From Saprospiraceae bacterium (GTDB lineage Bacteria > Bacteroidota > Bacteroidia > Chitinophagales > Saprospiraceae): a stretch of 64,000 bases of DNA. Location of the stretch: assembly GCA_020629515.1 (NCBI GenBank), contig JAHDDE010000005.1, positions 1-64,000 on the forward strand, read 5' to 3'. The notes under the pieces are model-generated. The model was not told the DNA's origin, made no database searches, and was given only the letters and a program-made list of their open reading frames with translations. Shown piece after piece: positions 8,237 to 64,000 of the stretch; positions within the stretch are counted from its first letter, which is position 1; the number at the start of each line of letters is the position of its first letter. The position numbers and the translations under genes are program-made.

Positions 8237-9751
8237 TTATTTCGGTATCGAAAACACTCTTGCAAAATATCCTGTCAGTTCGTCTAATGCGACTCTACTA
8301 TCTTCTGGTTCGATCCCTGAGAGTACTTTGGACAATCTTTTCTTATATTCTAATTGCATCGCACGACCTATTTGTATTCTCTGAGCCTGTGGACTTCCTG
8401 CCCCATGCATGCTTTCGGTAAGATATCCCACAGCATTTCTACCCAAAGTCATATTCTCTATAAGTCTCAGCATCTTAATTCTATCTTCAGTTGATACATC
8501 ATCTTTAGCCTTGAGATACTTCTTTATTAACGCACCTATTTTAGGATGATTAAGATCCTTCTCAGAAGGTAAAGTAACCATGATTCCTCCGGCAAGATCT
8601 TGAGACAATCGAGCTATTTCATAAGGCAGTTTGGTGACATGATGCTTACATACATTAGAGATCATATCATCACAAAGAAAGCACCCAGAATCCGTAGGAT
8701 AACCTTGGTAGGACGACGCTATGCCTGTTGCATATATAGTTTCATTGAGATGGGTCATTTCAACTAATTTGTCTTTGATATGAGACGCTTTGGGTACTCC
8801 ATTCATCTCTGCTATAGATGCCGCAGCACCTATCAACACATCACCAACCCCACTTTTACATACATAACTTCTTCTATGGTAAGCGGTGAATCGTTCTACA
8901 AGCATGGCAGCGAAGTCATATTCTCCATTCATAAAAATCAATTCATTAGGAATAAAAACACGATCAAATATCACCATAGCCTCCTGTCCGCCGTACAAGT
9001 TATTGCCTGTGTCTATATGACCTCCTTCCATTGCCCTTAAATCACAAGACTGTCTACCATAGATATAAGTGATACCCTCGGCATCGACTGGTACCGCACC
9101 CACTATTGCAAAGCTTTTATCGGCTTCCGAAAGTCTCATAGTAGGCATTACCAGCATCCAGTGAGAATTAATACATCCCGTTTGATGTGCCTTAGCTCCT
9201 GATATATATACACCCTGCTCATCTTTATCAACTATATGAACGAAGAGGTCTTGATCACTTTGTTCATGGGGAGCCTTGCTTCTATCTCCTTTGACGTCAG
9301 TCATCGCTCCACCAACGACATAGTTATAGGTATGCATTTCTGTCAAAAATTGCTTAAAGCGATCATGATAGTCGCTGCCATATTTTTCATCCATTTCGAA
9401 AGTCACAGAATACAATGCATTTGAAGCATCCATCCCCACACACCTTTGAAAGCAAGTTCCAGTATTCTGACCCAGTTTGCGTTGCATTTTATTTTGCAAA
9501 ACCAGATCATCTGTACTTGTACAAATTCCCAAAAATCGGCTGACTGATTCTCCAGTAAAGGGTGATATAACTGTAGCAAGTTCTGGAGCTGTTACCCCTA
9601 GATCATATGTTTCAGCTACCGCATTAATAGAAGGGCGCATGATCGGGTGATTGACAATATCTTCAACTCTTTCTCCAAAAAGATAAACCTGTAAATCTCG
9701 ACCCTTCAACGAGTCAATATAATCTTGACCAGTAACTATTTTTTCACCCAT
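8237..9751 (-). CDS. 4-hydroxybutyryl-CoA dehydratase/vinylacetyl-CoA isomerase-like protein (HpaB/AbfD family)
   Basis: Member of the HpaB/AbfD flavoprotein family, 504 residues. Unlike plain 4-hydroxyphenylacetate 3-hydroxylases, it keeps the [4Fe-4S] ligand pattern of AbfD: Cys100-x3-Cys104 (CFQRC), His292 and Cys298 in HRRSYVCK, plus Glu257 (GGQEAM) and the TESMHGAGSPQAQR segment (445-458). AbfD dehydrates 4-hydroxybutyryl-CoA to crotonyl-CoA by a ketyl-radical mechanism. From memory the Clostridium enzyme has YGGCK where this protein has YVCK, one residue shorter, so substrate or isomerase-only activity may differ. It follows a crotonase-family gene by 9 bases, supporting a CoA-thioester role. 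The family is confident; the exact substrate is inferred. Confidence 0.82.
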   Translation of the reverse strand: MGEKIVTGQDYIDSLKGRDLQVYLFGERVEDIVNHPIMRPSINAVAETYDLGVTAPELATVISPFTGESVSRFLGICTSTDDLVLQNKMQRKLGQNTGTCFQRCVGMDASNALYSVTFEMDEKYGSDYHDRFKQFLTEMHTYNYVVGGAMTDVKGDRSKAPHEQSDQDLFVHIVDKDEQGVYISGAKAHQTGCINSHWMLVMPTMRLSEADKSFAIVGAVPVDAEGITYIYGRQSCDLRAMEGGHIDTGNNLYGGQEAMVIFDRVFIPNELIFMNGEYDFAAMLVERFTAYHRRSYVCKSGVGDVLIGAAASIAEMNGVPKASHIKDKLVEMTHLNETIYATGIASSYQGYPTDSGCFLCDDMISNVCKHHVTKLPYEIARLSQDLAGGIMVTLPSEKDLNHPKIGALIKKYLKAKDDVSTEDRIKMLRLIENMTLGRNAVGYLTESMHGAGSPQAQRIQIGRAMQLEYKKRLSKVLSGIEPEDSRVALDELTGYFARVFSIPK

Positions 9752-9760
9752 GAACTTTTA

Positions 9761-10552
9761 TTATTTCCCCTTAAATAATGGTTTTCGTTTTTCTAAAAAG
9801 GCTTGAACTCCTTCTGTAAAATCATAGCTTGTCAATCCAATTTGCTGCTGCTCCGCCTCATAAATCGTATTTTGCTCTAATGTACTTATAGTTGCATGTC
9901 TCAAATCTCTTTTTGTTATCTCAACCGCTAATGGTGCTTTAAGTGCAATTTCTTTTGCCCATTTCATTGCATCATTTAATACATCACTCTCATTGACTAC
10001 TCTATTACATATATTCAGCTTTAAACATTCTTCAGCTGAAACTTTATGCCCACCAATTATAATCTCAAATGCTTTACTGTAGCCCACTAATCTATTCAAG
10101 AGCCATCCCGATCCTCCATCAGGTCCCAATCCTATATTAATAAATGGAAACCTTAGTACTGATTTATCTCCCATGACTCTAAGGTCACATGCTAATGCAA
10201 AAGCCAGAGAGACACCCGATACCGCACCGTGAATAGCTGCAATAACTGGCTTGTCCATATGAATTATTTTCTTGACTATAGACCCATAATACATAGGTAT
10301 ATACTCTACTATCTCTTCTGCCGTCTGAGAAACAAGACCTTTAAGATCTGCTCCAGCACTAAATCCAGGGCCTGCCCCAGAAATCACCACACATCTAGCG
10401 TCACTATTAAATTTCGCATTATCCAATGCCTGCAAAAAACCAGTAGTTAAATCGTGATTAACACTGTTATATCGATCAGGTCGATTAAGCAAAATATGGG
10501 CTACTCCATCTGCAATCCGAAAATCTACAGCGTTATTAGGCATTTCTTTCAT
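9761..10552 (-). CDS. crotonase-family enoyl-CoA hydratase/isomerase (PaaG-like)
   Basis: Crotonase-fold enzyme of about 263 residues that handles an acyl-CoA double bond. Seen: the CoA/oxyanion segment SGAGPGFSAGADLKG and the second oxyanion segment IHGAVSGVSLAFALACDL. The usual first catalytic Glu of hydratases is not at the AVSGV position, and the second position is Asp in GLGPDGGSG, as in PaaG-type isomerases. This points to double-bond isomerisation rather than classic hydration. I chose ATG at 10552; an in-frame TTG at 10567 would add five residues and ATG at 10543 would remove three. It is the first gene of a two-gene operon with the AbfD-like gene, 9 bases downstream. Confidence 0.87.
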   Translation of the reverse strand: MKEMPNNAVDFRIADGVAHILLNRPDRYNSVNHDLTTGFLQALDNAKFNSDARCVVISGAGPGFSAGADLKGLVSQTAEEIVEYIPMYYGSIVKKIIHMDKPVIAAIHGAVSGVSLAFALACDLRVMGDKSVLRFPFINIGLGPDGGSGWLLNRLVGYSKAFEIIIGGHKVSAEECLKLNICNRVVNESDVLNDAMKWAKEIALKAPLAVEITKRDLRHATISTLEQNTIYEAEQQQIGLTSYDFTEGVQAFLEKRKPLFKGK

Positions 10553-10752
10553 ATGTATCACATTCAATATATCAGTGAAAATAATGGGTAATTATACCAG
10601 TATAGATAAAATAATTGTCAACATACATAAATGATTACCTCGAATGCCAACACAATAGAGCAATAGAGGAGGTTGAACTTTGCTCATTTGGTTTTCTTAC
10701 CCTAATTATTGAGTTCCCTTATAAAAAGGGAAATGATTAGACAAAAATAAAA

Positions 10753-10782
10753 AGAGGGAATATCTAATTAGACATTCCCTCT
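10753..10782 (-). terminator. Rho-independent-terminator-like hairpin read on the minus strand
   Basis: The arms GAGGGAAT / ATTCCCTC (10754-10761 and 10774-10781) are extended by TCTA/TAGA. Read on the minus strand the single odd pair is a G-U wobble and the hairpin is followed by CTTTTTATTTTTG, a good T tract. Read on the plus strand the same pair is an A-C mismatch and no T tract follows. It therefore looks like a minus-strand terminator, yet no minus-strand gene is visible just upstream of it (10790-11248). Confidence 0.55.
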
Positions 10783-10834
10783 CACCAATTGATTACTATA
10801 TTTTTAAAGACTTTAAAGTCTATTTGTTTTAGAA

Positions 10835-10871
10835 AAAGACTTGAAGAATCATAAAGATTTTTCAAGTCTTT
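10835..10871 (+). repeat. long inverted repeat (16-bp stem)
   Basis: The arms are 10835-10850 and 10856-10871, with a five-base loop ATAAA. All positions pair except one, which is a G-U wobble if transcribed on the plus strand and a C-A mismatch if transcribed on the minus strand. The palindrome AGACTTTAAAGTCT at 10808-10821 shares the AAGACTT core, so the two form a tandem of related hairpins. It may be part of a structured RNA or a protein-binding site. Confidence 0.55.
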
Positions 10872-11248
10872 AAGTGGTTCTTGATTTCCACTAAGGTTAA
10901 ATTCAAACTTCAATTACAATCGTTACAATCTTAAGACGAATACAAAAAACGGCAACCACATAGAAATTGTAGATGATCAGTAGATTTTTGCGATTACTGC
11001 TAAGTAGCCGACATTATATCTTAAGAAATGGATAAATTTCATGACAGTGCATATCGATATTATCCCAAATGATGCAGATATATTAAAAATATCATTAATG
11101 TGTGCGGCATTTTTTAGTAATATTATATTTATTGGTTAATAAATCCTCTACAAAGTCTTGATTCAAATTGTAGAGTAATTGTCTACAAGCGACCAAAAAA
11201 AATTAGTGATATTTGTATAACCTTTAGATTTACATTGAACACCCTAAC

Positions 11249-11713
11249 ATGAAAAACAACTTTAATTCAAAAAAGATACTTCTGATAGAGGATAACATCG
11301 GTGATGTTAAACTGATTGAGGAAGCCATCAAAGCAAATTCACTGAACGTAAGCCTCACAGTACTTGACGACGGAGAAAAAGCCAAAGACTATTACGAACA
11401 AAAAGTAGCTGATGGTTACACTGATTTACCAGATTTAATTATATGTGATCTTAACTTACCCCGTTTTAAAGGGGATGAAATCATCAAGCTTTACAAGAAA
11501 GATGAGCGAATGAGGGTCATTCCATTGATAGTGCTGACTACGTCAAACTTAGACTTAGATATTAATTCTTGCTATCAATATGGAGCGAATGCTTATCTAA
11601 TAAAACCATTGGACGTTTTAGAATTTTTTGACATGATTTTACATGTTCATAAATTCTGGTTTCAGCTCGCAGAGATGCCTATCCACAAAGTAACGGAAAG
11701 CGCTTCTGTTTAA
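11249..11713 (+). CDS. single-domain response regulator (Rcp1-like receiver)
   Basis: Stand-alone CheY-fold receiver of 154 residues without an output domain. Seen: acidic pair Glu14-Asp15, phospho-acceptor Asp67 in IICDLNLPRFKG, switch Thr97/98 in VLTTSN and Lys119 in YLIKPLD. The extended loop and PLDVLEFFDMI ending match the Rcp1-type receivers often paired with phytochrome-like or PAS histidine kinases. Its partner is not adjacent; the PAS kinase at 20530-23013 is a possible candidate by inference only. It is convergent with the response regulator gene ending at 11756. Confidence 0.92.
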   Translation: MKNNFNSKKILLIEDNIGDVKLIEEAIKANSLNVSLTVLDDGEKAKDYYEQKVADGYTDLPDLIICDLNLPRFKGDEIIKLYKKDERMRVIPLIVLTTSNLDLDINSCYQYGANAYLIKPLDVLEFFDMILHVHKFWFQLAEMPIHKVTESASV

Positions 11714-11755
11714 ATCTAAATATCGATTATTATTTTTTTGATCTTAGTGTTGTGA

Positions 11756-12718
11756 TTACACACTAAGGATATATTCTCTTAACGATACATCGGCATCAAG
11801 CTTTAATTTCTTTTTTAACCTATATCTCGTCATTTGTATACTTTTCATTTCTACCCCCAGTATTCCCGCTAATTCGAAGTTATCGATGTTCATTTTAATA
11901 TAAGCGCAGTGCTTTAGATCTAATGCGGTTAATTTTGGATTAAGCTTTACTAATTGACTAAAGAAATCTGGATGGGTGGACTCGAATACCTTTTTGAATT
12001 CACCCCAATTATCTTCCTCATGACTTATCTCACTCAGACTTTTCTCAAGTTTTCTTAAGTTTCTTATAACCGCACTATCTGGATTTTCAGACTTAAGTAT
12101 ATTTATATTTTTGACAATTTCCTTTACGATACCTTCAACATTTTTACCCACCTTAGAAGACTCTACTTCCATAGTTATGAGCTTTCTTTTCTTATCGTCT
12201 AGCTCTCTTTCTAATTCTAATCTTTTAAGTTCCGCAAGTTCTGCTTTGATTTTTATGGAAGCTTGTAACTCTTGTTTTTGAATTGTAATTATTTCATTCA
12301 ATTCTTCCAACTGGTCTTTTTGCTTTTGTAGAGACAATTGGGCTCGAGACAATTTAAGTGCGCTATCCACTCTTGCCACTAATTCTACTCCTTTAACTGG
12401 TTTTTGAAGGAAATCTACACTACCATAATCAAAGGCTTGCTCAAGAACTGATTCATCCTCTAAACCAGTAATTATAATAACCGGCAAGTTATCATAATCC
12501 GGATGACCTTTAATTAATTTTAAAGCCTCCAATCCACCGACTATTGGCATCTGCCAATCCAACAAAATAAGATCTACTTGATTAGAAGATAAAAAGGGAA
12601 TTATCTTTTCTCCATCATCGAGTTCATGAAATTCAAAACGATCATAACCGAGTAATTCCATATATAGTATACGATCTACTCTTCTATCATCAACCGTAAG
12701 GATTTTAGACTTTGGCAT
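11756..12718 (-). CDS. response regulator with receiver, coiled coil and LuxR-like HTH
   Basis: Response regulator of 320 residues from the chosen ATG at 12718; a TTG 54 bases further upstream (12772) is in frame but precedes a poor receiver start. Residues 4-120 form the receiver, with Asp10-Asp11, phospho-acceptor Asp54 in LLDWQMP, Thr near 78 and Lys in FLQKPVKG. Residues about 120-190 are a highly charged coiled coil (KQKDQLEELNEIITIQKQEL). The C-terminal ~60 residues (LTALDLKHCAYIKMN, then LAGILGVEMKSIQMTRYRLK) fit a LuxR/GerE-like helix-turn-helix of the kind fused to coiled coils in Bacteroidota. It follows the alanine dehydrogenase gene on the same strand. Confidence 0.88.
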   Translation of the reverse strand: MPKSKILTVDDRRVDRILYMELLGYDRFEFHELDDGEKIIPFLSSNQVDLILLDWQMPIVGGLEALKLIKGHPDYDNLPVIIITGLEDESVLEQAFDYGSVDFLQKPVKGVELVARVDSALKLSRAQLSLQKQKDQLEELNEIITIQKQELQASIKIKAELAELKRLELERELDDKKRKLITMEVESSKVGKNVEGIVKEIVKNINILKSENPDSAVIRNLRKLEKSLSEISHEEDNWGEFKKVFESTHPDFFSQLVKLNPKLTALDLKHCAYIKMNIDNFELAGILGVEMKSIQMTRYRLKKKLKLDADVSLREYILSV

Positions 12719-12792
12719 ACTCTCTTCACATTTCAGCGAATAGTAAAAATATAAAAAATCCAGTCTATTCAACCCATATATTAGAATTTTTC

Positions 12793-54232: not shown

Positions 54233-57200
54233 TCATCTTTCGATAATCATTTTTTCTAAATAAGTTTCTCCCATTTGGTCAGTCATCTTAATCAAATAAA
54301 GACCAGCTGGAAGATCTGAGATATTCTGAGTTCTTGAGGTATCACGTATCTCCTTCACTACCTTGCCGTCCATGCTCAATAACTGAACATTAGCTAAAGC
54401 TAATCCTTTACTGTCAATCTTAAAAGAATGACTTGCAGGATTGGGGCTAATTATTGGTTCTGGAACATTATTTTTTTCTAATGCCCCCCAATCATCGCCT
54501 TTAGAATCAAGCACAATAGGCGATATATCAATAGATCTTGTCTTTCCAACATAACCATTAGATGTCCCTGGGACAATATTTAGACAATAATCTTCTACTT
54601 CTCCATATTGCAATACTTCGCAGGCACTGCTCGGATATCCGCTAAGACTCATGACAACTCTCATTCTTACTTTACCCAATACAGCATCATCAAGTATAGG
54701 TAGATCCCCAGTGATCGTGCTCGCACTTTTGGCAGTACCTATATGCTCTCGATAATCCTCAAAATCTCCATCACCATTATAATCTATAAAGATGTGATAA
54801 TAGCAATAATATCTGTAACTGTTAAAACCTGGTGTAAATCTCACTGAGACAGTCTCCCCTCTTACTACATCTACACAATAGGCTTCAAAATTACCATATC
54901 CGCCGTTATTACCCGTTTGAAAAAGCTTATTAGTAATTAACCCTTCATTGATGTAAGCATAATTACTATTAGTTGAATACGATTCACAATATGCTCCCGA
55001 ACCAGTATTAGTCGAGGTCACCGTTACATCAAAACTACATACATCAGTATTGCCACAGGCATCACTTCCCCTGTAAGTTATAGTGGTGGTACCCACTGGA
55101 AAATGGGCTCCGCTTGGCAATCCTTCAATCAAAGTATAATGATAACCTGCGGGTATCTCCATGATATATTCTCGTTTTACAGATCCATGATTATCATTCC
55201 AATGTCCAGTAGGTGCCATCTCCACGTAGTGCTGCGTTCCACTATGGTTATTAGGTTGCCCCTCATCCCAATTGAAAAAACCAATCTGTTGACCATTTAC
55301 AGCAGCAAAATCTCCTTCTGTAAGGTGATCGCTAATGCCTATAAAAGCTGTTTGTGTGATAAGCTGATTCGCCAAGAATGAATTTTCTTCAGGACTATTA
55401 ATTACGGCTAAATAACCTCCATTTCTACGACACTCCTTGTTAGCATCATGCCAAGAAAGATCTTCTCTGCTACAATAATAGTATGAACCATTAAAGTATC
55501 CCATATAAAGATATCCATCTATCTGAGTGCCCGTAGAGGTATTGTGTTCTGCCATACAACATGAATTAAATTCTGGTTCATCATATATCACTGTAGCGAA
55601 ATCTCCTCCTGTCTGAGCATTAACGTCATCGGGACAAGAGAAAGTAATAGTCTGCTCAACCACAATATCAAAACTACAAGACTGAACATTGCCACATGCA
55701 TCTACTACTTCATAACTAACCGTAGTCGGCTCATTGATCATAGCCATATCATCTGGTCCTGCTGTTTGTGTGATCGTATAGCAAGGTACTTCCATTACAA
55801 ATTCTAAGGGCTTATTGTTGTATTGATCATTCCAAAGCCCATTTCTCAGTAATTCAACATAATCTTGATATCCTCTATAATTATTAGGTTGTTGCGGGTA
55901 CCAATTAGTATAACTTAGATCAGATCCATCAACCCACTTAAAGTTACCCTCAACACTACGATCGCTCAAACCAATGTATGCCGCATTAGTCTGCAATAAT
56001 CCAGCAATGAAGCTGTTTTCTTCCGGAGAATTTATAATTGCCAAGTAGCCTCCATTGCTTTCAGAAATTAACTTAGCTGATTCCCAAGTAGCCTTGTCTC
56101 TTGAACAATAATATTGATTACCATTATATGCACCCATGTATATGAATCCAGGAATTTCTCCTCCATTACATAGCTCACAGTCCGTATTTACCTCTGGTAA
56201 AGGAATATAATCAATGGCCTCTTCTTCATCACACAGCATAACTATATCATCTGGGCAATTAATCAATAAGGTTGATCCAACATTTTCTGTTTCTACAGTC
56301 ACCACAAATGAGCAAGTAGTACTATTGCCGCAACCATCCGTAGCTGTGATAACCACGGTAGTAGTACCGATAGGAAATGTACTGCCTTTAGCTACACTAC
56401 TGGTTAAATTATATCCACAATTGTCCGATACCACTGGATCACTCCATGTATAGACTGGATTATCACTCGACAAGGTAACATCTGATGGGCAAGAAGAAAT
56501 TGCAGGCGCTTCTTCATCCTTTAATTCTATGATCTGAATACATGTTCTCACCAATGAAGGATTATCAATATTAGTGGCTCTCCAAGTTCTCTCAATTTTA
56601 ATCTGTCCATTACATGGTCCATTAGAGATTGTCCTGTCTGTATAAGTCAGATCTGGTGTCCCGCAAACATTACTTACAAAATATGTAGATGGCCGACCTG
56701 TCACTGAAGGATCTATTGAGCCTCCAATACAACCAACATAATTAGCTCCACAAGCTATCGTAGGTATTTCTGTACAAGTCGCTTGGTTAACCGTCACTAC
56801 GAAAGAACAAGAAGTACTATTACCACAGTCATCAGTAGCGGTAACCACGACTGTAGTATTTCCAATAGGAAAAGTACTACCCTTAGCCACAGAATTGCTT
56901 ATAGTATAACCACAATCGTCTGATACTATTGGATCGTTCCAAGTATAAGCGGCATTCGTATTTGTCAAAGTAATATCCGATGGACATGATGTTATCACTG
57001 GTGCTTGCGTATCTCCCAATACAATGTTCTGAATACATGAAACAAATTTGGTCGGGTCTGAAATACTCGTTGCCATCCATATCCTCTGAATAGTTCTTGA
57101 ATTATTACAAGTACCTGTAGCAACTGTGATATCTTCATAAGTAACAGATGCTGGCTCGCAAGTGCCACTGATAAAGGAGGCTGTTGCCTGGCCAGTGACC

Positions 57201-58921
57201 GCTGGATCGATGGAACTACCCACACAAGCTGAATAATCATTAGGACAGTTCAATATTGGTGTTTCAGTACAGCCCACTAAGTTTACAGTGATAGTGAATG
57301 TGCAAGATGTACTATTACCACAAAAATCAAGAGCTGTATAAGTTACAGTATGAACACCAGGTCGAAATACGCTTCCACTTGACATGTTAGAAGTAACAGA
57401 AGCTACTCCACAATCATCAGTTGCCGTTGGAGCATCCCATAGCACTACTATCCCACTTGTAGAGATCGTATTTTGCACAATATCATCTGGGCATTCAGAA
57501 AGAATAGGTGCTGTATCGTCTCTAAGTGTGATGATCTGATCACATGTCGAGTTAAGATTAGGATCAGTCGCATGAGATGCTGTCCAAACTCTACGTATCG
57601 TTCTTGCTCCAGTACATTGACCAATAGATTGAACAACATCGGTATACGAAATATTCGGCGTGCCACATTGATCATTATTGAAGAAGGCTGAAGGTCTTCC
57701 AGTGATAGATGGATCAATAGAACTACCTACACATAATGTTACATCTTGAGGACAAGAAATTATTGGATTCTCATTGCAGCAAGACTCAATGACGGTTACA
57801 TTAAATGAAGCTGATGAACTATTCTGACATCTGTCCAAAGCTGTATAAGTAACTGTAGTGGTTCCAGGGCTAAATCTTGATCCATTGGCTATACTTGGCA
57901 TAAAAAATGTCACTGCACAATTATCTACTGCCTTCGGCATCTCCCAAGTTACTATAGCGTCACAGCCATCATTAGAGGTAACTGTAATATCACCAGGTAA
58001 ATTTTCTATGACTGGTGGTTCAACATCTTCCATTCTTATTCTTTGGGTACATGTCGCTCTAAGGTCGCTATGATTTGGATGCGTCGCTGTCCATATTCTA
58101 TCGATTATTAGCGCCCCTTCACATCCTGGAGCAGCTCCAATTGTGATATCCTCATAAGTCACCACAGGGGTCCCACATCCAGCATCTGAAAAACTCGCTG
58201 TAGCCATACCTGTCCTCAACGGATCAATCGTATAGCCTATACATGTACTATAAGTAGGAGGACATGAAATAACTGGTAATTCGGTACAGCAAGTTTCATT
58301 AACTGTGATAGTAAATGAACATTGCGAGGTACGTCCACAAGCATCTATAGCTGTATAAGTCACGGTAGTTATGCCACTTGGGAACGTGCTTCCTGAAGCA
58401 TAATTACTTGTGAATGATATAATTGTACAATCATCTGTAGCTACAGGAGCAGTCCAACTGACCACCGCTGAGCAAGATTGGTCTGAGTTGACCACTATGT
58501 CAGAAGGACAATTAGATATAATTGGAGTATCAGTGTCTTCTAATAAGATAATTTGTGTACACTCTGCAAATAACCATGGATTAGAATTATTTGGATAATC
58601 TGCACGCCAAAGCCTTTTTATCAATATTCCTCCATTACAATCATCATTACTCTCAATCTTATCTGTATAAGATATTACTGGAATATCGCATCCTGCTTCT
58701 CCAGCAACCGCAGTAGCCCAGCCTATATCATCTGGAGAACTAGAGTCTCCTTCACAACCAAAGTAGTTTTGTGGACAAGTGATGACAGGAGACCTATTGC
58801 AATCAAAATCAAAGTAGGACTCATTAATCGAGTAAAGTTGGGTTGAACTCAATGAAAGCAGTAAGACTAAAGTCAACATACTATTAGTGACCTTGTCTAT
58901 ACAAAGTAGAGCATTTCGCAT
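54233..58921 (-). CDS. giant T9SS surface protein with HYR repeats, lectin-like and GEVED domains
   Basis: Secreted protein of 1562 residues. A signal peptide (about 14-31) is followed by five ~170-residue repeats (about 43-890), each with a Cys-bounded segment (CPxxYxxC, then GTPxxTY, CTQxI) and an HYR-type Ig-like domain ending in TTVTYTAxDxCGNSxxCSFxVTV. Two C-type-lectin-like domains follow (about 920-1044 and 1130-1257), each with YCSRexxSWxxA, GGYLAVINSPEENSF, a Trp-x-x-(D/Q)-Gln-Pro-Asn-Asn segment and WND, the residues that hold calcium and sugar in true lectins. HYR-type domains follow each. A GEVED domain (about 1314-1450; YNGDGDFEDYREHI) precedes a type A T9SS sorting domain (about 1487-1562; SPNPASHSFKI, LPAGLYLIKM). 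Probably an adhesin or glycan-binding surface protein. Confidence 0.92.
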   Translation of the reverse strand: MRNALLCIDKVTNSMLTLVLLLSLSSTQLYSINESYFDFDCNRSPVITCPQNYFGCEGDSSSPDDIGWATAVAGEAGCDIPVISYTDKIESNDDCNGGILIKRLWRADYPNNSNPWLFAECTQIILLEDTDTPIISNCPSDIVVNSDQSCSAVVSWTAPVATDDCTIISFTSNYASGSTFPSGITTVTYTAIDACGRTSQCSFTITVNETCCTELPVISCPPTYSTCIGYTIDPLRTGMATASFSDAGCGTPVVTYEDITIGAAPGCEGALIIDRIWTATHPNHSDLRATCTQRIRMEDVEPPVIENLPGDITVTSNDGCDAIVTWEMPKAVDNCAVTFFMPSIANGSRFSPGTTTVTYTALDRCQNSSSASFNVTVIESCCNENPIISCPQDVTLCVGSSIDPSITGRPSAFFNNDQCGTPNISYTDVVQSIGQCTGARTIRRVWTASHATDPNLNSTCDQIITLRDDTAPILSECPDDIVQNTISTSGIVVLWDAPTATDDCGVASVTSNMSSGSVFRPGVHTVTYTALDFCGNSTSCTFTITVNLVGCTETPILNCPNDYSACVGSSIDPAVTGQATASFISGTCEPASVTYEDITVATGTCNNSRTIQRIWMATSISDPTKFVSCIQNIVLGDTQAPVITSCPSDITLTNTNAAYTWNDPIVSDDCGYTISNSVAKGSTFPIGNTTVVVTATDDCGNSTSCSFVVTVNQATCTEIPTIACGANYVGCIGGSIDPSVTGRPSTYFVSNVCGTPDLTYTDRTISNGPCNGQIKIERTWRATNIDNPSLVRTCIQIIELKDEEAPAISSCPSDVTLSSDNPVYTWSDPVVSDNCGYNLTSSVAKGSTFPIGTTTVVITATDGCGNSTTCSFVVTVETENVGSTLLINCPDDIVMLCDEEEAIDYIPLPEVNTDCELCNGGEIPGFIYMGAYNGNQYYCSRDKATWESAKLISESNGGYLAIINSPEENSFIAGLLQTNAAYIGLSDRSVEGNFKWVDGSDLSYTNWYPQQPNNYRGYQDYVELLRNGLWNDQYNNKPLEFVMEVPCYTITQTAGPDDMAMINEPTTVSYEVVDACGNVQSCSFDIVVEQTITFSCPDDVNAQTGGDFATVIYDEPEFNSCCMAEHNTSTGTQIDGYLYMGYFNGSYYYCSREDLSWHDANKECRRNGGYLAVINSPEENSFLANQLITQTAFIGISDHLTEGDFAAVNGQQIGFFNWDEGQPNNHSGTQHYVEMAPTGHWNDNHGSVKREYIMEIPAGYHYTLIEGLPSGAHFPVGTTTITYRGSDACGNTDVCSFDVTVTSTNTGSGAYCESYSTNSNYAYINEGLITNKLFQTGNNGGYGNFEAYCVDVVRGETVSVRFTPGFNSYRYYCYYHIFIDYNGDGDFEDYREHIGTAKSASTITGDLPILDDAVLGKVRMRVVMSLSGYPSSACEVLQYGEVEDYCLNIVPGTSNGYVGKTRSIDISPIVLDSKGDDWGALEKNNVPEPIISPNPASHSFKIDSKGLALANVQLLSMDGKVVKEIRDTSRTQNISDLPAGLYLIKMTDQMGETYLEKMIIER
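56250..58800 (-). repeat. five tandem ~510-base repeats inside the giant gene
   Basis: Units begin near 58795, 58285, 57775, 57270 and 56780 on the minus strand, each coding for a Cys-rich segment plus an HYR domain. Spacing is constant at about 505-510 bases, and the protein pattern is conserved while the DNA has diverged, which argues for old duplications rather than recent unequal crossover. Confidence 0.8.
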
Positions 58922-59303: not shown

Positions 59304-62300
59304 ATGCATAAATTGTTTAAACTGATTTGGGGACTTTTCTTGTTTTGTTCAACTGTTATGGTACATGGGCAAGATCTTTATTGGATAGGTAATGGGGGAA
59401 ACTGGAATGATGCCAATAATTGGTCTACGTCAAGTGGAGGGCCGAGTGATGGTGCTGTTCCTACTGCAAATAATGACGTATACTTTGATGATAATTCTGG
59501 TGACTGTATCATTGCTCAAAATGCTATTTGTCGTAACCTGGAATATAACACATTAAGTAGTCTCACTATTTCTTCAGCACTTTCAGTTACAAACACCTTT
59601 ACTCACATGTCTGGGACAATCAGCAATGAGAGTACTATAAGCACAGGTATATATAGTTCCAACTTTGTCAACAACAGGACTTTGGATAGTTCAACAGGCA
59701 CTATAAGAATAAATGCAGATGCTTCTATGGTAGGAGCATTCTCTATCAACTCTACAAACTTCACGCTTGTCGGATTGGATAGTTTAATATTTGAGAGTGA
59801 CGGTCTTAATCAATTGCAGACTACTGGCGAACTCAACTTAAATTATGTTGAATTTATAACCGACGGTGAGATCTATGGTAATCATAGTTTAGAAATCTTA
59901 AGGTTAGGAAATAGTCGAACCTTATTCATTCAAAGTGGAAGTAAGCAAACCATTAATACAGACTTAATAACTGATGACCCCTGTGTGGGCTATGCTACTA
60001 TTTCTGGTTTTCTTGAATTTAATACTCCTGCGGTTTTAGATATTGCTATTCCCGGCAACTATAGACCCAGAGGGTTTCTGTTTCGTAGAATAGAATTCAT
60101 AGTATTAGTACAAGGGGTAAATTTCCCTCTCGATTTAAGATTTTCCATAAATGGAGGTGAAAATATCAACTTTGATGCAAGTAACCCTGATGTGAGAGAT
60201 CTATATTGGGTGGGAGGAACTGGAGATTGGTATGACCCTGCCAACTGGTCACTGGAAAGTGGTGGACCTGGCGGAGAGTGTGTTCCCACCTCCATTGACA
60301 ATGTTTTTTTTGATGAAAATTCATTTGATAGTAATATGGATATTGTCAGTAGTACTTCAGCTACTTTTTGTAATAATATCACTTATACTGCATCCGAAAG
60401 TGGGACTACATTCATAATGCCAGAAATGTTTATTTCTAATGATTTCACTCTACTGAGAAGTATTACCTGGAGAGTAGGATCCACTAACTTTAGTGGTAAT
60501 AGGGAGGGTGGCGCAAGTCGTATGCAGCTTATCACTTCAAGTGGTACTGTATTCCAAAATATCAATGTTTTTAGCGAACGAAATATCGAATTGCAAGATG
60601 ACCTCAATGTAGAATTAGATATCACTATCAATGGATTTGATCCAAGTGTAAGTTTCATCACTAATGGTCACAATATAAACACCGGTCGATTTTTTGCGAT
60701 TAATAATGATATGCGGTTAGATCTAACTGATTCATACATTACTATCAATGGTATTTTGGAAGAAGCTGACCAACCAGTCAGGTTAATTAATTCCTCACTA
60801 AGCTCGACTAATAATACCATATGGGAGTTCACTGCTGAGAGTACAGGATTTGAGGTTAGCGGCGGAGATTTAGGTACTATCTTATTCTCTAATCCACTAG
60901 GACAAGCATTTGCATTTTCTACAGACATTGCCACTATCCAAAAACTAACTTTCAATGGAAATGGTCAGATATTTCAGGATGAATATATAATAGACAGTTT
61001 GATCTTTTCGGCAGGAGGAGTATACATGATCCAAACTACAGAAGAAATCACTGTTAATCAATATTTTGAGTCTGTAGGTGATATTTGCCGTCCGATTACA
61101 TTTGCAAGCCTAGTGGGAGGTATACAGGAAAATCTATTTATTCCAGCGAGTGCTGAATTAAGTATGAGTTATACCGAAATTTCAGATATCAGTGCATCAG
61201 GTGGCAATCCATTTGATGCTGGTGAGGGAAGTGTTGACCTGGGAGGTAATAGTGGGTGGTCATTTCGCGACCCTGATGCCCAAGAAATCAATAAATTCTT
61301 AGGACCAGATACCATAGTGTGCAATAGTATCCCTGAAGTAATCTTTAATCTGAATTTTGAAGAAGATGATGTAGATAGTGTCATATGGAATCGAAATGAA
61401 TTGCAGCAAAGTGGCCCTTATACCTTTACCGTAGCCACTCTGGATAAACGACCTGCTATAATCACAACCCTGACAGCGGAAGTTTTTTTCAGCAACGGGT
61501 GTAGTCAAAAGGATACTGTAATGATAGGGGTTAACGAAGCCTTTGATTTTTCCTTAGGTGAAGATCGTACACTTTGCAATGGGGAATTAGGGCAGCTTAC
61601 TGTACCTATAGATGACGCCACCTACAATTGGTCTAATGGAGAATCAGGAGCCTCTATATTGATATTTGAACCGGGAACATATAATGTCAAAGTAGATAGC
61701 GGTGCTTGTAGCTTTGAAGATGAAATAATTATCCAATCGTTTGATCTCACGTCTCTAACTCTCGGACGTGATACAGTGTTATGTGATGCCAACACGCTGA
61801 CTTTAAACGGGCCAGCTGATTTTGACGGAGGAATAGTTTGGTCTGATGGTTCTACATCCCAAAGCATAGAAATACAACAATCAGGTATTTATTTTGCTGA
61901 TTTCAGTCAAGATATATGTGTATTTAGAGATAGTATTGACATCACTTTTGATAGTGCATTTGATATCAACTTAGGCAATGACACTACTTTGTGTAATGGT
62001 GCTTCGATCACATTGAATACCAATCGAGACGCTGGTATATTTACATGGTCTACTGGGTCTACAGCACCTTTGATTACTGTAGATGACGATGGAATCTATA
62101 GTGTGGATGTACAGATAGGTTCATGCATAGCATCTGATTCTATCGAAATTTCAACGGTGCAAATCAAAGAATTTGATTTGGGGTCGGATACAACTTTTTG
62201 TTTAGGAGAATCTTATGAAATATCGATTCCAGATGGTTATCAAGGCGATTTTGCCTGGTCGACTGGCGAATCCACAACAGAGATTACAATATCAGAAGAG

Positions 62301-64000
62301 GATATATACATTTTAGAATTACGAGAAGACATCTGTCGTCTGGCGGATACTGTTTTGGTCACATTTGATACTCCAAGACAGTTTGATTTAGGGCCTGATA
62401 CCACTTTATGTGATGGAGAAACGCTGCTATTGCAACTCGAAGGTTTGCCTGACGATATTGCCTATGTGGTTAATTGGAGTCCCACAATGAGCACAGAAGA
62501 GTCTTTCTTAGTTTCTGAAACGGGAGTATATGAAGTCCAAGTTGGAATTGAGTCCTGTGTGACAGCTGACACTATAGAGGTAAACTTTAATTCTATAGAA
62601 TCATTCAGCCTTGGTAATGATACCACACTTTGTGAGGGCAGTAGGGTCCTATTAAACGCTCCTGCTAATAGCACTCCGCTCTGGTCAGATCAAAGTTCTG
62701 CAACAACTCTTGAGGTAAGCAGCCCCGACCTGTATTGGTTAGAACTTAGCAATGGACGATGTACAAAAAGAGATAGTATCGAGGTGGCTATAGATGAATT
62801 GTATCTAATCGATTTAGGTACAGATACGACTCTTTGTGAAGGAAGTACCCTAAACTTAACATTAGATAACCTTCCTTCTAACCCAGATCTAATCGTCGAA
62901 TGGAATGTCGATAATCCAGAAGTTGAAAGGATCACCATTTCTCAAGGGGGTACCTATATTGCCGAAGTTGTCAATGGTTCCTGTATAGATCAGGATACAA
63001 TCAATGTTCAATATGTCTTTATTGAAGACTTTTCGATCGGCTCAGATACATCAATTTGTGCAGAAGAAACTTTGATTTTAAATGTCCCAGAGGGATTATC
63101 CAATGGTTTTATTTGGTCCGATAACAGTACTTCGACCTCCCTTGAGGTTAGCGGAACTGATGGTTCTACAGAAAACTACAGCCTAACCATTATGGAAGGT
63201 ACATGTTCTAAGTCAGATACTATAACGGTAGCATTTGATGCTGCGCTCGACTTTAATTTTATCTCTTCTGATACCACTCTATGCAGTGGTGAATCAATAA
63301 ACCTGTCTTCAGGTATCGCTAACGCTGATATATATCTGTGGAACACTGGAGATGAATTAGCTGAGATCACAGTTGCAACTCCTGGTCAATATATACTCAA
63401 TGTAGAGAGAGGCACTTGTTCTGCTACCGACACAATTAATATCGCTATTATAGATGTAGATAATTTTTCAATAGGTAATGATAGTACATTATGCCAAGGA
63501 GATACTTTAACCCTTAGTTCTAATTTGACTGGAAACGTCAACTATATCTGGCAAGATGGATCTACAGAATCAACTTATACCTTGGATGCTCCAGATATCT
63601 ATTCTGTCACTGCAAGTATAGATCGATGCGAAGCCACAGCAAGTGTCATAATCGATTATCAACAAGCTCCAATATTAGAATTAGGTAATGATACTACTAT
63701 TTGTGAACCCAATTCGGTCCTCTTATCACCGGATATCGCAAATGCCAGTTATCTATGGTCCGATGAAAGCGCCTCTCCTACATTAGAAGTATTAAATAGC
63801 GGAGGGTATTCTGTTCTTGTTGATGATGGAGTATGTAGAGTCATGGATAGCATCAACATAACAGTACAGTCCTTACCGGACTTATCGATAGCTACAGAGG
63901 ATGATATCTCTATCTGCCAGGGCGACTCGGTGGTATTATCCTCCATGAGCGAGAATGTCTCTTATATATGGCAAGATCTGACAACAGAATCTCAATTTAT
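59304..64000 (+). CDS. giant secreted repeat protein, 3' end beyond the window
   Basis: Open reading frame of at least 1565 codons from ATG 59304, with no stop up to the window end. A signal peptide ends near MVHGQ (residue 23). Two N-terminal modules start with LYWIGNGGNWNDANNWS (24-40) and LYWVGGTGDWYDPANWS (about 300), 275 residues apart, followed by strand-rich sequence to about 660. From about 666 onwards a tandem array of ~75-residue repeats begins, each starting with a variant of LGNDTTLCxG and containing WS(T/D)GxS, a Gly-x-Tyr and a Cys before the next unit. Such proteins usually end in a T9SS gliding-motility-associated C-terminal domain; that end is not visible. Role: probable adhesin or gliding-related surface protein. 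Confidence 0.9.
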   Translation, partial: MHKLFKLIWGLFLFCSTVMVHGQDLYWIGNGGNWNDANNWSTSSGGPSDGAVPTANNDVYFDDNSGDCIIAQNAICRNLEYNTLSSLTISSALSVTNTFTHMSGTISNESTISTGIYSSNFVNNRTLDSSTGTIRINADASMVGAFSINSTNFTLVGLDSLIFESDGLNQLQTTGELNLNYVEFITDGEIYGNHSLEILRLGNSRTLFIQSGSKQTINTDLITDDPCVGYATISGFLEFNTPAVLDIAIPGNYRPRGFLFRRIEFIVLVQGVNFPLDLRFSINGGENINFDASNPDVRDLYWVGGTGDWYDPANWSLESGGPGGECVPTSIDNVFFDENSFDSNMDIVSSTSATFCNNITYTASESGTTFIMPEMFISNDFTLLRSITWRVGSTNFSGNREGGASRMQLITSSGTVFQNINVFSERNIELQDDLNVELDITINGFDPSVSFITNGHNINTGRFFAINNDMRLDLTDSYITINGILEEADQPVRLINSSLSSTNNTIWEFTAESTGFEVSGGDLGTILFSNPLGQAFAFSTDIATIQKLTFNGNGQIFQDEYIIDSLIFSAGGVYMIQTTEEITVNQYFESVGDICRPITFASLVGGIQENLFIPASAELSMSYTEISDISASGGNPFDAGEGSVDLGGNSGWSFRDPDAQEINKFLGPDTIVCNSIPEVIFNLNFEEDDVDSVIWNRNELQQSGPYTFTVATLDKRPAIITTLTAEVFFSNGCSQKDTVMIGVNEAFDFSLGEDRTLCNGELGQLTVPIDDATYNWSNGESGASILIFEPGTYNVKVDSGACSFEDEIIIQSFDLTSLTLGRDTVLCDANTLTLNGPADFDGGIVWSDGSTSQSIEIQQSGIYFADFSQDICVFRDSIDITFDSAFDINLGNDTTLCNGASITLNTNRDAGIFTWSTGSTAPLITVDDDGIYSVDVQIGSCIASDSIEISTVQIKEFDLGSDTTFCLGESYEISIPDGYQGDFAWSTGESTTEITISEEDIYILELREDICRLADTVLVTFDTPRQFDLGPDTTLCDGETLLLQLEGLPDDIAYVVNWSPTMSTEESFLVSETGVYEVQVGIESCVTADTIEVNFNSIESFSLGNDTTLCEGSRVLLNAPANSTPLWSDQSSATTLEVSSPDLYWLELSNGRCTKRDSIEVAIDELYLIDLGTDTTLCEGSTLNLTLDNLPSNPDLIVEWNVDNPEVERITISQGGTYIAEVVNGSCIDQDTINVQYVFIEDFSIGSDTSICAEETLILNVPEGLSNGFIWSDNSTSTSLEVSGTDGSTENYSLTIMEGTCSKSDTITVAFDAALDFNFISSDTTLCSGESINLSSGIANADIYLWNTGDELAEITVATPGQYILNVERGTCSATDTINIAIIDVDNFSIGNDSTLCQGDTLTLSSNLTGNVNYIWQDGSTESTYTLDAPDIYSVTASIDRCEATASVIIDYQQAPILELGNDTTICEPNSVLLSPDIANASYLWSDESASPTLEVLNSGGYSVLVDDGVCRVMDSINITVQSLPDLSIATEDDISICQGDSVVLSSMSENVSYIWQDLTTESQF
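61299..64000 (+). repeat. tandem array of ~225-base repeats coding for DTxLCxG units
   Basis: At least 12 units, and a partial thirteenth at the window end, are read in one frame. The first unit (61299) is degenerate, lacking the usual Cys-x-Gly. Later ones vary around the pattern L-G-x-D-T-T-L-C-x-G, then W-S-x-G-x-S, then a G-x-Y turn and a final Cys. Each unit has two cysteines, which could form one disulfide per repeat. The repeats differ in sequence, suggesting old expansion. Confidence 0.8.

Follow-up and report, generated by a model that had tools for sequence, protein, structure and literature searches.

The gap between two diverging genes of a Saprospiraceae genome probably encodes, on balance, a short minus-strand RNA of the non-coding type, which would begin within the gap and be stopped before the downstream ECH-HpaB genes; this reading is drawn from the sequence and from its comparison between species. 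Two hairpins carry the argument. T2, a minus-strand terminator with no gene in sight for it to end, is real by structure, its pairing being kept in one of two congeners, and T1, which is kept in the other congener, is best read as a minus-strand terminator too. The window is the whole stretch of DNA that was analysed, 64 kb in length, and is part of contig C49 of the 3.9-Mb genome G000. Feature coordinates are collected in Table 1.

Table 1. Features of the gap and its flanking genes, in window coordinates
Feature	Position	Strand	Remark
ECH, enoyl-CoA hydratase/isomerase family gene	9761..10567	-	leads the downstream pair of minus-strand genes
Third hairpin, between T2 and the ECH gene	10702..10740		no U-tract on either side by eye; stretch 10690-10745, z -3.2
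U-tract after T2, TTTATTTTTG	10742..10751	-
T2, intrinsic terminator hairpin, 14 pairs, loop 4	10752..10783 (stem 10753-10782)	-	kept by structure in G002, L068:7709-7742
12-mer GTAATCAATTGG	10785..10796	-	same in G002; in both genomes it precedes the T2 stem by 1 base
Block conserved with G001 (GTAACGATTGTA ... AGAACCA-TTA-AGACTTGAA + T1)	10824..10935	-	probable body of the putative RNA
T1, 16-bp stem read as minus-strand terminator, TTTTTC tail	10835..10871	-	G001 orthologue L085:1532-1557
Candidate -7 box TAAGATTG, one mismatch to TAnnTTTG, TTG 19 bases upstream	10926..10933	-	weak; chance not excluded
Divergent control region, short blocks shared with G002 (TGTCGGCTA, TCTACAA)	10936..11030		9/4000 shuffles, stretch chosen after looking
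Single-domain response regulator	11249..11713	+	divergent neighbour of the gap

Results

The gap (10568-11248) spans 681 bases and is flanked by the diverging ECH and receiver-domain genes, with an HpaB-type gene coming after ECH, both on the minus strand. Two congeners were compared, G001 (58% complete, locus on a 4858-base contig) and G002 (locus on a 1,258,030-base contig); from 80 named loci, these two congener records were used for the gap comparisons and the other 78 were left out. Gene order in G001 is as in the window, with a gap of 483 bases, and G002 differs in having a sensor kinase gene of 4.4 kb (domains PAS, HisKA and HATPase_c; L068:7924-12357) placed between the gap and the regulator. 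All three congeners keep the divergent arrangement, whether the kinase gene is there (G002) or not.

The sensor kinase gene is missing from the matching place in the window and in G001, and the best match of the G002 kinase in genome G000 (C80:33713-34546) is 53% identical and covers the kinase end only. A kinase-gene remnant in the gap was considered and rejected, since tblastn of the G002 kinase gave best E values of 0.79 (G001 gap) and 1.9 (window gap). ECH stands beside the HpaB-type gene in three of three congeners (8237-10567 in the window). Eleven other genomes of the family have an HpaB match; an ECH match is present in eight of them, always on another contig, and three have none at the cut-off, so the ECH-HpaB-type gene pair may be genus-specific. 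No match was returned by a viral scan using the ECH alignment, nor by a first scan of genome contigs using the regulator protein. The far end of the window holds two very long divergent ORFs, 54233-58921 (1562 aa) and 59304-63998 (1565 aa, running off the window).

Within 10500-11300, T2 was the sole terminator-like site found, against a shuffle mean of 0.2. It folds at -20.0 to -20.7 kcal/mol on the minus strand (z -5.8, with 0/200 shuffles as good) and at -15.1 kcal/mol on the plus strand (z -4.2). The sequence-only reading had assigned this hairpin to the minus strand and found no gene for it to serve, and both points hold: -20.7 compares with -15.1, the U-tract is on the minus strand, and the closest minus-strand gene upstream, 11756-12772, is about 970 bases off with the plus-strand regulator gene in between. 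The 12-mer recurs in G002 on the same strand upstream of the same gene, one base ahead of a hairpin, and all 11 anchored pairs of T2 hold between the window and G002 (five unchanged, two with one-sided and four with two-sided changes). When the 3' arm was slid by 1 to 3 bases as a control, 3-5 of the 11 pairs were left. Read on the plus strand, the wobble pairs of the two hairpins would become mismatches, and only on minus do the hairpins lead into U-tracts. Apart from the 12-mer, the region upstream of T2 showed no conservation with G002 (578/4000 shuffles).

Other exact copies of GTAATCAATTGG number one in G000, between open frames, and one in G002, inside a frame; as a backward control of the 12-mer also gives two in G000, these extra copies are taken as chance. 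The other G000 copy (L167:1501-1512, contig C16) lies directly behind another palindromic hairpin by eye and was likewise judged chance. A 16-base pattern that includes GAG matched in 4 of 60 genomes, and the matches in the two outside the genus (G015, G034) fall inside open frames. Part of the T2 3' side (TGTCTAAT...TTCCCT..TTTTTAT) is repeated just downstream on the minus strand, within 10705-10780. The repeat resembles a partial tandem duplication and may have made the third hairpin; it was seen by eye, and the repeat search reported no direct repeats.

T1 in the window folds better on the plus strand (-18.5, shuffle z -3.9) than on the minus strand (-15.3, z -3.3), its minus-strand mismatch being a wobble on plus, and to that extent the earlier view that this wobble favours plus was right. 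A plus-strand RNA from this stem is not supported, however: the window has no T-tract on the plus side, and the orthologous stem of G001 gives -9.2 on minus vs -4.0 on plus and carries G-U pairing on the minus strand only. G001 reads AGACTTGAA-GGAGC-TTTTAAGTCT and then TTTTTTATTG on the minus strand, a better U-tract than that of the window, with the conserved blocks GTAACGATTGTA and AGAACCA-TTA upstream. For T1 and about 65 bases upstream, roughly 110 bases aligned with G001, 0/4000 shuffles scored as high, the stretch having been picked after looking. T1 was found in two of the three congeners (not G002) and T2 in two of the three (not G001), so neither terminator occurs in every one of them; conservation of the stems in close relatives is borne out for T2 in G002 and T1 in G001, with each missing from the other congener.

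The whole window was scanned on both strands for terminators of -9 kcal/mol or better, against a gene map of 50 of the 56 ORFs (six overlapping larger ones omitted; ORFs of at least 100 aa only). This returned 66 terminator-like hairpins, of which 55 are inside genes, five come after a same-strand gene and six were sorted as orphans. Two of the six fall within ORF 59304-63998, which is absent from the gene map, and are therefore really in a gene. That leaves four hits of the 66 that lie outside genes and do not follow a gene of their own strand. All of these fall in the gap, two per strand, the plus-strand pair being weak (-9.2 and -9.3). T2 ranks second, and only three hits lie beyond -16 kcal/mol: T2 and two after same-strand genes, the latter at ranks 1 and 3 (-21.2 and -18.1), 16 and 45 bases behind their genes. 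T1, at -13.5 on the minus strand in the scan, does not stand out from the hits inside genes, two of which are stronger (-15.1 and -13.7). Elsewhere in the gap, stretch 10890-11010 gave a marginal hairpin (z -2.1, 7/200 shuffles), and stretches 11120-11200 (z -1.0) and 11000-11130 (z 0.3) fold no better than chance. The earlier count of four or more hairpins is apt as a description of the 681-base gap, of which about three exceed chance by shuffles.

TAnnTTTG is given as the main -7 box of the phylum in the portions available of two reports (PMC7366714, PMC9723704). Where the window has TAAGATTG, G002 has TATGTATG, both departing from TAnnTTTG at one position, and G001 has no TAnnTTTG-like box there. 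With at most one mismatch, nine such boxes occur on the minus strand of 780 bases, two of them with TTG at the distance; nine boxes in 780 bases, and none at the place in G001, make the promoter candidate weak. Three-frame translations compared by eye gave no minus-strand ORF shared across the three genomes. A minus-strand small protein, the 43-aa ORF 10782-10913, was rejected, as its frame is not kept by eye, and the 'VINW' that it shares with G002 comes from in-frame translation of the conserved 12-mer.

Whole-gap local alignments are weakly above shuffles for window-G002 (17/4000) and window-G001 (78/4000), and the G001 and G002 gaps, compared with each other, are not above shuffles (243/300). 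A DNA search of 10560-11260 in 40 relatives found neither congener's gap at E 0.001; two of the 40 (G013, G033) had short 41-bit matches (E ~9e-4), to 11078-11119 and 10804-10835, and the second own-genome match was the palindrome itself. At an E cut-off of 0.1, a model of T1 (R1) had matches in 24 of the 100 family genomes, with 103.8 bits in its own genome and at most 19 bits in the other 23, which are all outside the genus and were taken as noise. A model of T2 (R2) matched in 4 of 100 (80.4 bits in G000, 84.2 in G002, 29.5 in G064 and 27.9 in G079). Nothing convincing was found by R1 or R2 in 98 other family genomes (weak matches in 23 and 2, regarded as noise), in samples of 100 that exclude G001 and in large searches that ran stricter filters. 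MAFFT failed to line up the arms, leaving R1 with no base pair and R2 with only three, so the models act mainly as sequence profiles.

The covariance-model check against Rfam that had been suggested found nothing in the window that reached a gathering score. At lax thresholds, 19 matches up to E 5 were obtained over the two strands, all of them well short of gathering; they include GibS (RF04182, minus, 26.3 of 115 bits, E 0.2) and BTnc231 (RF04180, minus, 22.5 of 80.4 bits, E 0.03), both below gathering, and JA02 (plus, 28 of 49 bits).

Discussion

The most likely explanation that the comparisons suggest is an unlisted small RNA, ordinary in kind and ended by the gap's terminators. Its transcription would start inside the divergent control region, at a site inferred to lie near 10920, and would head away from the response regulator. 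Stopping at T1 would yield an RNA of about 90 nt and reading through to T2 one of about 175 nt, with the ECH-HpaB genes not reached. The suggestion of one or two small RNAs is best retained as a single RNA of the minus strand that has one 3' end or two, which fits better than a pair of RNAs on opposite strands. Such an RNA might have a regulatory role, or it might be a divergent transcript that is terminated. A more elaborate version is doubtful: a small RNA specific to the genus, with a choice of two 3' ends, lying between the regulator/kinase unit and the acyl-CoA gene pair, kept with or without the kinase gene, would link both divergent units by base pairing via the unchanged GTAATCAATTGG, exposed in the longer form. 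Any target of the putative transcript is conjectural.

It is possible, with a lower probability than that of the small minus-strand RNA, that the terminators merely keep spurious or divergent transcripts of the regulator/kinase promoter region out of the ECH-HpaB genes and that the RNA is functionless. The retention of the divergent arrangement in all three congeners, kinase gene present or not, is consistent with such an insulator, as are the turnover of the T2 stem sequence while its pairing stayed and the occurrence of T1 in G001 where G002 has T2; bidirectional promoters are also described as ubiquitous in prokaryotes in the accessible text of two reports (PMC12825309, PMC10268837). However, the T1 block is conserved beyond its stem and the 12-mer is unchanged between the window and G002, which is more than a bare insulator needs.

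Two further readings tie the hairpins to a neighbouring gene. T2 or T1 lies upstream of the ECH start on the ECH strand, at 184 (window), 86 (G002) and 117 bases (G001), as a conditional terminator (attenuator or riboswitch) in an ECH 5' leader would, but this role is improbable. The longest complement to a terminator's 5' arm was 3, 4, 4 and 5 nt, against shuffle means of 4.2-4.8 and maxima of 6-9 (three genomes, contiguous Watson-Crick matches only, single-base shuffles); with no upstream complement to the arm beyond shuffles, no antiterminator is seen. The Rfam result likewise argues against a leader, as do candidate ECH promoters placed, by eye only, downstream of the terminators. Very unlikely is a long minus-strand RNA from gene 11756-12772, antisense to the response regulator, with its 3' end in the gap, of the type of noncontiguous operons, a class described in the part available of one report (PMC7154746). 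Window 11714-11755 has no minus-strand terminator-like hit, the hairpin there has no U-tract, and the distance to T1 is about 0.9 kb, all of which would allow it. Yet G002 keeps T2 although the corresponding upstream gene is more than 5 kb away, behind the 4.4-kb kinase gene, so read-through from a distant minus-strand gene hardly explains T2, and G002 has a strong hairpin at the convergent end of the regulator gene. Read-through, attenuator and coding roles being poorly supported, the remaining reading is a transcript begun in the gap.

Structure that is kept from one species to another can lend backing to an orphan terminator first spotted by eye, in raw sequence, and the present one points to an unlisted RNA in relatives of Saprospirales; if it is only an insulator, it would be ordinary genome housekeeping. 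The literature search turned up no small-RNA study on Saprospiraceae, which is no proof of absence from print. As expected of a terminator-ended intergenic small RNA, the element has a Rho-independent terminator at its 3' end and, as judged by eye, no conserved ORF. In the available portion of the report on Bacteroides thetaiotaomicron (PMC7366714), the small RNAs GibS (145 nt) and BTnc231 have a start site and an intrinsic terminator. The gap element differs from them in scoring far below Rfam gathering, in showing no sequence homology to them and in a start site that is putative, whereas it resembles them in phylum, AT-rich intergenic site, Rho-independent 3' end and size range. Rfp1-89 of Flavobacterium psychrophilum belong to another family of the phylum and were found by expression, where the gap RNA is proposed by sequence only; as far as the accessible text goes (PMC9723704), the independent transcribed regions of that species have a median of 176, and Rfp1-89, like the putative gap RNA, are short, typically without coding potential and independent of annotated features.
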